A DNA stretch of 26,866 nt, taken from positions 1 to 26,866 of the IMG/VR virus record IMGVR_UViG_3300018080_000519. One strand, written 5' to 3'. The notes under the pieces were generated by a model that was not told where the DNA came from, searched no databases, and saw only the letters and a program-made list of their open reading frames with translations. Within the stretch, counting starts at the first letter, position 1. Each line of letters starts with the position of its first letter. The position numbers and the translations under genes were made by a program. Below are positions 22,144 through 26,866 of the stretch, in pieces. The stretch comes from a virus.

Positions 22144-22172
22144 GGCCCCTCTTTATTGAGGGGTCTTTTTTT
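22144..22172 (+). terminator. Rho-independent terminator ending the late operon
   Basis: GGCCCCTC (22144-22151) pairs with GAGGGGTC (22158-22165) over 8 base pairs including one G-T, with loop TTTATT. Seven T follow directly at 22166-22172. It lies 40 bases after the holin stop and cleanly separates the structural/lysis operon from the next promoter. Confidence 0.92.
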
Positions 22173-22203: not shown

Positions 22204-22232
22204 TTGACAAAACTAGAAACAATTGTTAATGT
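22204..22232 (+). promoter_or_regulatory. Promoter of the Zn-ribbon / tRNA-like region
   Basis: TTGACA at 22204-22209 is a perfect -35 box. Seventeen bases later TAATGT (22227-22232) is a weak -10. The segment from TTGACA through the spacer shares TTGACAAAA, AGAAAC and the same spacing with the promoter at 24286, which supports a common phage promoter type. A better AT-rich hexamer, TATAGT, lies a few bases further but too far for standard spacing. Confidence 0.5.
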
Positions 22233-22262: not shown

Positions 22263-22445
22263 ATGAAAACAACAGAAGAAACAAAATATTTTATTATAGG
22301 AACTTTTGAAGCTCAGGAAATAGGTTTAAAGTGTAGCGTATGTGGTGAAATTATCACAACACCAAATATTTTTTTCATACAACATAAAGAAACTGCTTCA
22401 ATTCAAGTATCATGTGATAAATATAAATGTTGGAGTATCTTTTAG
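22263..22445 (+). CDS. Small zinc-ribbon-like protein
   Basis: 60 residues with GGGAG before the ATG. Cys at 24, 27, 51 and 56 (CSVC and CDKYKC) could bind one zinc. The rest consists of short strands, with a Phe/Ile-rich centre. Such small ribbon proteins are frequent in early or middle phage operons and may bind nucleic acid or host proteins. It is the first gene after the promoter at 22204 and is followed by the structured noncoding region. No specific family is recognised. Confidence 0.55.
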   Translation: MKTTEETKYFIIGTFEAQEIGLKCSVCGEIITTPNIFFIQHKETASIQVSCDKYKCWSIF

Positions 22446-22456
22446 TATGATTTACA

Positions 22457-22486
22457 GTCAAGGGGGGAGCGCAAGCCCCCTTTGAC
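22457..22486 (+). other. Strong GC hairpin before the tRNA-like elements
   Basis: GTCAAGGGGGG (22457-22467) pairs with CCCCCTTTGAC (22476-22486) with one G-T, and GC-GCAA-GC can form a GNRA tetraloop at the tip. It follows the Zn-ribbon gene by 11 bases. There is no T-tract, so termination is doubtful; mRNA 3' protection or a processing signal is more likely. Confidence 0.55.
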
Positions 22487-22492
22487 AAAATA

Positions 22493-22561
22493 CACTGCTT
22501 AGTATCAATGGTAGATATAATGGATAGCTTCCATGTCTTGGGTTCGATTCCCGAAGCAGTG
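22493..22561 (+). tRNA. tRNA-like element 1 (69 nt, no readable anticodon)
   Basis: CACTGCT (22493-22499) and AGCAGTG (22555-22561) form a perfect 7-base-pair acceptor stem. TTGGG-TTCGATT-CCCGA (22538-22554) is a canonical T arm. TATC-AATGGTA-GATA (22503-22517) is a good D arm with the conserved GG. T8 and A9 are present. The anticodon arm is wrong: ATGGA-TAGCT-TCCAT has a 5-base loop, and other pairings give ATAGCTT with a mismatch and a T at position 37. The total is several bases shorter than a normal tRNA. CCA is not encoded. It is either a decayed tRNA gene or a tRNA mimic that is processed but does not decode. Confidence 0.45.
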
Positions 22562-22652
22562 AAGAACGCAGGCGCTGACTAATTGGTCTAATTAACCAAT
22601 TCCTGTAGGATCCAAAAAGAGGGCAGTGACGGCCGGGAAAAGACCGGCAACA

Positions 22653-22709
22653 AGCCGTATCGTGGTTGAAACTATTTTTTAGTGTGGCGGTTCGATTCCG
22701 CTTGCGGCT
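22653..22709 (+). tRNA. tRNA-like element 2 (57 nt, D and anticodon arms reduced)
   Basis: AGCCGTA (22653-22659) pairs with TGCGGCT (22703-22709) over 7 base pairs with one G-T. GGCGG-TTCGATT-CCGCT (22686-22702) is a full canonical T arm. Only 26 bases lie between acceptor strand and T arm, against about 41 in a normal tRNA. They hold TGGTTGA, resembling a D loop, and ACTA-TTTTT-TAGT, a small hairpin with a 5-base loop. It cannot decode in the usual way. CCA is not encoded. Confidence 0.35.
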
Positions 22710-22713
22710 CATA

Positions 22714-22771
22714 ATCCCTCCCCTCACATGGTAAAGCATGCAGCCCGTGCAAGTCGAGCTAGGGGACGGAT
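22714..22771 (+). ncRNA. Third stem-loop of the structured region
   Basis: ATCCCTCCCCT (22714-22724) pairs with AGGGGACGGAT (22761-22771), 10 of 11 positions, around an inner stem GCATG-CAGCC-CGTGC (22736-22750) with again a 5-base loop. CATGGTAAAG between the stems resembles a D loop. There is no T-loop motif. It could be the remains of a tRNA or a separate RNA element before the next gene. Confidence 0.35.
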
Positions 22772-22798
22772 AAAATAAAAATTTAAAGAGGTTTTATC

Positions 22799-24285: not shown

Positions 24286-24314
24286 TTGACAAAAGCAGAA
24301 ACGAATATTATATT
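24286..24314 (+). promoter_or_regulatory. Strong promoter of the recombination operon
   Basis: TTGACA (24286-24291) and TATATT (24309-24314) are separated by exactly 17 bases, close to ideal sigma70 consensus. The same pair with the same spacing recurs at 26054-26082, and the TTGACAAAA...AGAAAC portion recurs at 22204. It drives the small acidic protein, Bet and two following genes. Confidence 0.82.
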
Positions 24315-24343
24315 GTTCAAAAATAAGTAATGGAGGAAAAGCA

Positions 24344-25929: not shown

Positions 25930-25935
25930 CGAGAA

Positions 25936-25969
25936 GGCCCCCGGCGAATGGAGTAAAAAACCGGGAGCC
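25936..25969 (+). terminator. Hairpin after the recombination operon (possible terminator)
   Basis: GGCCCCCGG (25936-25944) pairs with CCGGGAGCC (25961-25969), eight of nine positions, loop of 16 bases. There is no immediate T-tract, though TTTT and TTTTT follow within 30 bases. AGTAAAAAACC inside the loop (25952-25962) can instead pair with GGTTTTTACT (25986-25995), which would break the first stem. Confidence 0.4.
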
Positions 25970-26035
25970 ACTGGAGTTTTATTAGGTTTTTACTGAATGA
26001 AAATTTAATATTAATATAAAATAAGTATTTTTTTC

Positions 26036-26059
26036 TGTCAACTGTTTTTTTTGTTGACA
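26036..26059 (+). repeat. Inverted repeat over the -35 box (possible operator)
   Basis: TGTCAAC (26036-26042) and GTTGACA (26053-26059) are perfect reverse complements separated by 10 bases. The right half contains the -35 box of the promoter at 26054. A dimeric repressor or activator could bind here. Confidence 0.4.
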
Positions 26060-26082
26060 AACGAAAAAACGTTATTTATATT
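26054..26082 (+). promoter_or_regulatory. Promoter of the replication region
   Basis: TTGACA (26054-26059) and TATATT (26077-26082) with a 17-base spacer, identical in both boxes and spacing to the promoter at 24286. Transcription would start near 26090 and run through two large hairpins before reaching the replication gene at 26302. Confidence 0.8.
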
Positions 26083-26107
26083 GTTTTTATCAGATGTAAG
26101 TATTATT

Positions 26108-26187
26108 ATATCGGCGGACGTTAGACCAAATACACTTTTCTTCTCTTCTTGTTTTTACAGTAATTTTTTTGTGTATTCCGCCGATAT
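26108..26187 (+). ncRNA. Large bulged hairpin in the leader of the replication gene
   Basis: ATATCGGCGGA (26108-26118) pairs perfectly with TCCGCCGATAT (26177-26187). Inside, after an 11-base bulge on the left, ATACAC (26130-26135) pairs with GTGTAT (26171-26176). The remaining 35-base loop is almost all pyrimidine and contains CTTCTT, which can pair with the AAGGAG ribosome site of the replication gene with one G-T. It may be a regulatory RNA element or a replication-origin structure. Confidence 0.5.
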
Positions 26188-26218
26188 TGCCCTTATTTAA
26201 TATTTTAAAGCTTCATAA

Positions 26219-26274
26219 AAGCCCGACTCGTATAATAAAACCTTGCTCACAGGTATTTTATATTAGTCGGGCTT
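26219..26274 (+). repeat. Long hairpin before the replication gene
   Basis: AAGCCCGACT (26219-26228) pairs perfectly with AGTCGGGCTT (26265-26274). The interior continues with ACCT/AGGT and AT-rich pairs around loop TGCTCAC, making one long imperfect hairpin. CTTCTTACTTT follows, weakly T-rich. It could terminate a small RNA begun at 26090 or attenuate expression of the replication gene, whose AAGGAG lies at 26287-26292. Confidence 0.6.
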
Positions 26275-26301
26275 CTTACTTTACAAAAGGAGTAGCAGAA
26301 A

Positions 26302-26866
26302 ATGAGTGAAATTAAATGGATTAAAATTACAACAAACATGTTTGACGATGAAAAAATTAGACTTATAGAAATGTTGCCAGATGCTGATGCAGTATTAGTG
26401 ATATGGATCAAGCTTTTAATGCTTGCCGGTAGGTGTAACGATAAAGGTCTTGTTTATTTGCACGAAGAAATGCCATACGATGCACAAATGTTGTCAACAA
26501 TAATGAGAAAACCAGTTGCAACGATACAACTTGCATTAAATGAATTTCAAAACCTAAAAATGATAGAAATTCATCAGTGTGGAATTGAAATAATAAACTG
26601 GGAAAAACACCAAAATATTGAAGGTATGGAGAAAATAAAAGAGCAAACAAAAAAAAGAGTACAAAAGTATAGAGAAAATAAAAAATTAGAATTAGGACTA
26701 GCCGGCAACAAAAGTGACAATAATGAATGTAACGTTACTGTAACGTTAAGTAACGCAACAGAAGAGAATAGAATAGATAAGAATAGAATAGATACAGAAG
26801 AGAATAGAATAGATAAGAATAGAATAGATACAGAAGAGAATAGAATAGATAAGAATAGAATAGATA
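26302..26866 (+). CDS. Replisome organiser / replication initiator (3' truncated)
   Basis: 188 codons are visible and the frame is still open at the window end. AAGGAG precedes the ATG. The N-terminal 120 residues are a clear phage replisome organiser N-terminal domain: MSEIKWIKITTNMFDDEKIR, LVIWIKLLMLAGRCNDKG, NWEKHQNIEGMEKIKEQTKK. This winged-helix protein binds the phage origin and recruits helicase. After it comes NVTVTLSNAT and then a perfect 12-residue repeat (TEENRIDKNRID) three times, encoded by iteron-like DNA. The C-terminal helicase-loader-binding part lies outside the window. Origins inside the initiator gene are known from several phages of this type. Confidence 0.9.
   Translation, partial: MSEIKWIKITTNMFDDEKIRLIEMLPDADAVLVIWIKLLMLAGRCNDKGLVYLHEEMPYDAQMLSTIMRKPVATIQLALNEFQNLKMIEIHQCGIEIINWEKHQNIEGMEKIKEQTKKRVQKYRENKKLELGLAGNKSDNNECNVTVTLSNATEENRIDKNRIDTEENRIDKNRIDTEENRIDKNRID
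26730..26755 (+). repeat. TAACGTTA palindromes (possible initiator binding sites)
   Basis: The 8-base palindrome TAACGTTA occurs at 26730-26737 and 26741-26748, and a third partial copy TAACG at 26751-26755. The copies are spaced 11 and 10 bases apart, about one helical turn, which suits cooperative protein binding on one DNA face. They lie directly before the 36-base repeats. Confidence 0.5.
26758..26865 (+). repeat. Three perfect 36-bp tandem repeats (iterons, putative origin)
   Basis: Copies lie at 26758-26793, 26794-26829 and 26830-26865, identical over all 36 bases, and the array runs to the window end. Each copy contains two near-identical 15-base subunits built on AGAATAGAATAGAT plus ACAGAA. 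The period is a multiple of three, so the coding frame is kept. The very AT-rich sequence could also serve as DNA-unwinding element. More copies may exist beyond the edge. Confidence 0.8.

Follow-up and report, generated by a model that had tools for sequence, protein, structure and literature searches.

The window, that is the whole 26,866-base stretch of the viral record IMGVR_UViG_3300018080_000519, belongs to a siphovirus, with genes encoding TerL, capsid, tape measure, amidase endolysin and RecT proteins, as well as a portal protein fused to a minor head protein. On the basis of the portal, the nearest named phages are those of Bacillus, Rossellomorea and Geobacillus (26-31%). The same phage is also represented by IMGVR_UViG_3300017991_000505 (L001/L141; TerL and portal: 100%), which extends ~650 bases further upstream and stops short of the array described below. 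Towards the other end of the window, a second noncoding stretch (25930-26300) with strong inverted repeats (TATCGGCGGA/TCCGCCGATA and AGCCCGACT/AGTCGGGCT) precedes the last ORF, which is truncated. The contig terminates within a repeat, GAATAGAATAGATAAGAATAGAATAGATA (26770-26866), near the end of this ORF, and the assembly probably broke here because of the repeat.

A noncoding region downstream of a short ORF forms the subject of this analysis (Table 1). In an otherwise AT-rich genome it has a GC content of 0.46 and a minimum free energy (MFE) of -0.32 per nt, while the other gaps of this phage range from 0.26 to 0.37 in GC content and from -0.17 to -0.20 per nt in MFE, making it the gap with the strongest per-base folding. 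A minus-strand ORF overlapping the region (22458-22739) was rejected as it has no Pfam match. The promoter-like stretch ahead of the region was recognized by eye; the promoter scanner made no call at this position and called the terminator that precedes it. Similar GTTGACAAA-type stretches, also recognized by eye, recur before gene blocks (22204-22232, 24288-24316 and 26040-26090).

Table 1. Features of the array region and its surroundings, and the comparable element of a sister phage
Feature	Position	Strand	Description
Terminator	22144-22172		Scanner call; the promoter-like stretch lies downstream
Promoter-like stretch	22204-22232	+	TTGACA-17-TAATGT, by eye; ahead of the 60-aa ORF and array
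60-aa ORF	22263-22445		Ahead of the array
Noncoding array region	22446-22798	+	353 nt, between the 60-aa ORF and a 148-aa ORF
G-rich hairpin	22457-22486	+	11 bp, from folding; immediately 5′ of element 1
Element 1, tRNA-like cloverleaf	22493-22562	+	70 nt including discriminator A22562
Element 1 acceptor	22493-22499/22555-22561		CACTGCT/AGCAGTG, 7/7 pairs; 8/8 with T22500-A22554
Element 1 D arm	22502-22518		GTATC-AATGGTA-GATAT
Element 1 anticodon arm	22520-22534	+	ATGGATAGCTTCCAT, 15 nt; ATGGA[TAGCT]TCCAT or ATGG[ATAGCTT]CCAT
Element 1 T arm	22538-22554		TTGGG-TTCGATT-CCCGA, 5/5 pairs including T-A and T-G
Structured spacer, elements 1-2	22563-22652	+	Hairpins AATTGGT/ACCAATT and GCCGG/CCGGC, from folding
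Element 2, D-armless, tRNA-like	22653-22709	+	57 nt; 90 nt downstream of element 1
Element 2 acceptor			AGCCGTA/TGCGGCT, 7/7 pairs
Element 2 T arm			GGCGG-TTCGATT-CCGCT, 5/5 pairs; loop as in element 1
Possible element 3	22714-22771	+	Closing stem ATCCCTCCCCT/AGGGGACGGAT, 91% complementary; D-loop-like ATGGTAAAG
Sister phage G306, element EB, D-armless	L223:1491-1551 (also L228)	-	Acceptor 7/7, T arm 5/5

Judged by its sequence and fold, element 1 descends from a tRNA. It combines a 7-bp acceptor stem with a T arm of the TTCRANT type, does not encode CCA, and its MFE structure (-22.2 kcal/mol; z-score: -2.99) is the cloverleaf itself. The perfect acceptor stem, D arm and canonical T arm reported in the first-pass annotation at 22493-22561 were thus recovered, with the discriminator extending the element by one base, as was its anticodon arm of 15 bases. 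Of the programs proposed there as checks, ARAGORN at standard settings returned nothing in a whole-window scan, nor did Rfam at its gathering thresholds, while Infernal, applied to the stretch alone, aligned the element to the Rfam tRNA covariance model (CM) over its full length (1-71) with a score of 25.1 bits (E-value: 0.0009; 79 nt x 4227 families), below the RF00005 gathering cut-off of 29 bits.

The anticodon arm departs from the 17-nt arm and 7-nt loop of a tRNA. Its 15 nt can fold as five pairs with a 5-nt loop (-3.9 kcal/mol), the form taken in the CM alignment, or as four pairs with a 7-nt loop, ATAGCTT, which would place U33 correctly and show the anticodon AGC (-1.5 kcal/mol). As the latter form is possible but less stable, a readable anticodon is disfavored, if still conceivable. 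The earlier claim that none can be read therefore stands as the probable state of the modelled arm, favored by both CM and energy, with the AGC-bearing alternative as the qualification.

Element 2, which does not feature in the earlier description of the locus, likewise has a 7-bp acceptor stem and a TTCRANT T arm. Its D stem is absent, however, and a hairpin, ACTA[TTTTT]TAGT, sits in the anticodon position. Within the window, the T arm sequence GGTTCGATTCC has just two perfect copies, separated by 148 nt, and across elements 1 and 2 all 24/24 acceptor and T-stem pairs (12 each) are intact. The highest-scoring Rfam match of element 2 is the mascRNA-menRNA family (RF01684; positions: 1-56/56; 16 bits; E-value: 0.27), well below the gathering cut-off of 42.5 bits; the tRNA family is not listed for this element, other families scoring higher. 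The fold of element 2 is less secure than that of element 1, since its own MFE structure (-18.9 kcal/mol) differs from the open tRNA-like form (-16.5 kcal/mol). The spacer between the elements contains a D-loop-like TTGGT and may represent another, degenerate element, but it has no tRNA match, and possible element 3 lacks the T-loop consensus and gave no tRNA match. No canonical tRNA was found in the window or in the searched sequence of the sister phage G306. A tmRNA was rejected, as practically only the T arm matches the tmRNA CM, far below its cut-off, and ARAGORN at standard settings found none; an intron-containing tRNA was also rejected, the ARAGORN -i calls being noise.

A 7/7 acceptor with a T arm of at least 4/5 pairs arises in 6/300 shuffles of the whole window. 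The strict architecture (acceptor 7/7, T arm 5/5, gap of 20-59), of which the window has two instances, has a single match in 867,386 nt from related phages, both strands included, and this match is itself a candidate element, EB of G306. Two strict elements 90 nt apart on the coding strand are not a product of chance. They might instead merely be T-loop motifs contained within one larger structured RNA of unspecified kind. The whole 353 nt folds well (z-score: -2.5), and in the MFE structure the element 1 acceptor strand pairs with GGGCAGTG near 22625 and not with its own 3′ strand. However, the elements fold individually, element 1 matches a tRNA from end to end, and no Rfam family covers the whole region, making a single larger RNA highly improbable.

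Should the elements still decode, they would do so in an unorthodox manner, element 1 reading GCU-type codons with its ATAGCTT loop and element 2 acting as a D-armless tRNA with the loop ATTTTTT. U33 is in place in both of these readings, and ARAGORN with loosened thresholds does place a tRNA-Ala(AGC) at element 1, amid dozens of noise calls. Against this, the 7-nt loop loses 2.4 kcal/mol in stability relative to the 5-nt loop, which the CM also favors, base 37 is U, and the G3:U70 determinant of alanine tRNAs is replaced by C3-G70 in element 1. Furthermore, alanine anticodons with A34 are unusual in bacteria. Even with the acceptance of an engineered D-armless tRNA by the translation machinery of E. 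coli (PMC11551756), we consider decoding unlikely.

Relatives of the phage were sought by a portal-profile scan, which yielded sister phages at 43-53% identity. In one of these, G306 (IMGVR_UViG_3300031952_000045; portal: 49%; endolysin: 35%), two T-arm motifs lie on the coding strand at a distance of 181 nt, within noncoding sequence preceded by a promoter-like TTGACT-18-TATTAT. In the second element, EB, a D-loop-like TATGGTTAG has no accompanying stem, and the anticodon position is taken by a hairpin whose loop has 6 nt. Its top Rfam match is tRNA-Sec with the D arm mostly deleted (20.6 bits; sub-threshold), and a rival fold is better by about 1 kcal/mol. The first element, EA, is weak, with four acceptor pairs only and no CM match. 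Homology between the window and G306 arrays was rejected, as their local alignment score falls within that of shuffles. Most other sister phages have no comparable array, and other T-loop motifs in 74 portal relatives mostly lack tRNA architecture; ordinary-looking tRNA sequences are observed in two portal relatives, L222 and L256. DNA searches of phages, plasmids, IMG/VR and GTDB genomes recovered no homologue of the window elements, the weak matches falling outside them on terminator and AT-rich stretches. Protein queries from near the locus (o22799, endolysin and RecT) found no relatives in IMG/VR, while the sole contig retrieved with TerL (100%) stops short of the array. The literature searched holds nothing specific on such phage tRNA-like RNAs.

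The elements could also be relics of attachment sites, host tRNA gene pieces acquired through site-specific integration. In prokaryotes, partial tRNA genes are known to arise when genetic elements integrate (PMC9897764). The 21-nt T-arm/acceptor end was, however, found in 0/84,980 genomes, and no integrase was identified among the window ORFs scanned, on a contig that is a fragment. As both elements furthermore possess their own matching 5′ acceptor strand, such an origin appears very doubtful.

The main rival remains decay, whereby deletions removed two anticodon-arm bases from element 1 and the D arm from element 2 in former tRNA genes no longer under selection. Single deletions could yield both elements, phage tRNA clusters turn over quickly, and conservation is not seen for the window locus. 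An intact tRNA is, however, absent from the window, yet every acceptor and T-stem pair holds in both elements, and a similar kind of loss is found in G306. A survey for D- and T-loop consensus sequences spaced too closely for a normal anticodon arm recovered short-arm tRNA-like genes in at least 120 IMG/VR contigs (L002-L121), many labelled tRNA-??? or missed by ARAGORN; such RNAs are largely invisible because the ARAGORN and Rfam cut-offs drop or mislabel them. The matches listed include 71 distinct elements in which 6-7 acceptor pairs and 4-5 T pairs form. Within the 2 kb of sequence covered around them, 40 show no ARAGORN tRNA, while about 31/71 lie near normal tRNAs, as would be expected of decaying arrays. 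Some of the surveyed elements may represent decay or sequencing error.

In a family from Lachnospiraceae prophages, by contrast with what decay would leave, short arms are retained with compensatory changes. Each of its nine distinct sequences (members include L060:3733-3820, L083:1983, L127:5777 from Cuneatibacter caecimuris DSM 29486, L005, L069, L133, L134 and L121) has an anticodon arm of 4 bp and 6 nt, with two-sided changes in the acceptor, anticodon and T stems, variable loop sequences and, in most members, one acceptor mismatch. The gene is solitary, with a shared leader ending in TTATGGA immediately 5′ of the acceptor and, where scanned, neighbors belonging to PHROGs of unknown function (phrog_17256 upstream and phrog_2152 downstream). 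An integrase is found nearby in these prophages, and the short-arm pattern occurs in just 3/299 genomes of the host family. The short arm is clearly maintained here, and covariation together with a persistently short arm, which the first-pass annotation had named as support for a tRNA mimic, is seen in this family unrelated to the window. The G306 and Lachnospiraceae elements are best viewed as parallels to the window array, homology not being shown, and the retention of similar reduced-looking tRNAs in other phages may mean that such elements are working RNAs rather than junk. Taking both sides together, decay is a quite possible account of the window array.

All secure elements share an intact acceptor/T half and a reduced decoding half, the reduction affecting the anticodon arm in element 1 and the D and anticodon arms in element 2. 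This design recurs across elements, and the initial observation of a retained acceptor/T half beside an altered decoding half thus extends to element 2 and to G306. The reading we prefer, with a probability of roughly 45%, is that the phage encodes an array of non-decoding tRNA-like RNAs, or pseudo-tRNAs, with a function outside decoding. The acceptor/T half is the part read by RNase P, RNase Z, the CCA-adding enzyme and EF-Tu. The array would be transcribed together with its flanking genes, with RNase P generating the 5′ ends and RNase Z cutting immediately 3′ of the discriminator, as both enzymes read chiefly this half, releasing RNAs of 57-70 nt that may receive CCA. Selection would act on the acceptor/T half, although this is a weaker step, drawn from the inability of the elements to decode normally. 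The elements could mark where the phage transcript is cut ('tRNA punctuation'), or they could act as decoys, engaging host factors that bind or cut tRNAs while offering no anticodon loop to cleave; both punctuation and a decoy for tRNA-targeting defences fit the data. A broader and rather doubtful proposition is that several phage lineages maintain tRNA-like RNAs of an unrecognized, non-decoding class, which are under selection for the acceptor/T half, freed of a functional anticodon arm and act on host tRNA-handling enzymes, in a decoy or anti-defence role, or as RNase P cutting points. The window array would be one case of this class, with a D-armless form that is natural among its members.

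The presence of tRNAs in phages is a long-standing puzzle, and tRNAs that are non-decoding yet kept, if real, would separate codon supply from defence evasion and RNA processing. Phage tRNAs are known to counter tRNA-targeting defences through full, replacement or cleavage-resistant tRNAs (PMC10264068, PMC11555353). Like phage tRNAs (RF00005; PMC10264068; PMC11555353), the window elements are tRNA-derived, phage-borne, arrayed and altered in the anticodon arm. Unlike the anti-defence tRNAs, which decode and replace cleaved host tRNAs, they have a 15-nt anticodon arm or have lost the D arm, and unlike phage-encoded tRNAs (RF00005) they have no canonical tRNA beside them. A non-decoding decoy would, if true, constitute a mechanism other than the replacement tRNAs described in these studies (PMC10264068, PMC11555353). 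The Bacillus cereus pseudo-tRNA tRNA-Other (PMC3399842) is similarly a tRNA-like RNA of the Bacillota outside translation, but it has a Trp anticodon and is chromosomal, beside a pathogenicity island. The Lachnospiraceae prophage family resembles element 1 in being phage-borne with intact D and T arms and a short anticodon arm, but differs in its canonical GCTC/GAGC D arm, 4-bp and 6-nt anticodon arm, solitary position and own leader, and shares no sequence homology with the window. With its 57 nt, intact acceptor and T arm, and reduced D and anticodon arms, element 2 resembles mascRNA/menRNA (RF01684), of which mascRNA mimics a tRNA and undergoes RNase P/Z processing (PMC11693755). These are 3′ ends of animal lncRNAs, however, and element 2 is not a member of the family, the likeness being one of design only. 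The engineered 62-nt mini HisT (PMC11551756) lacks a D arm, as do element 2 and EB of G306, but is synthetic and decoding. Known bacterial tRNAs are all stated to be canonical cloverleaves (PMC11551756), and natural D-armless phage tRNA-like RNAs would, if confirmed, bear directly on this statement.
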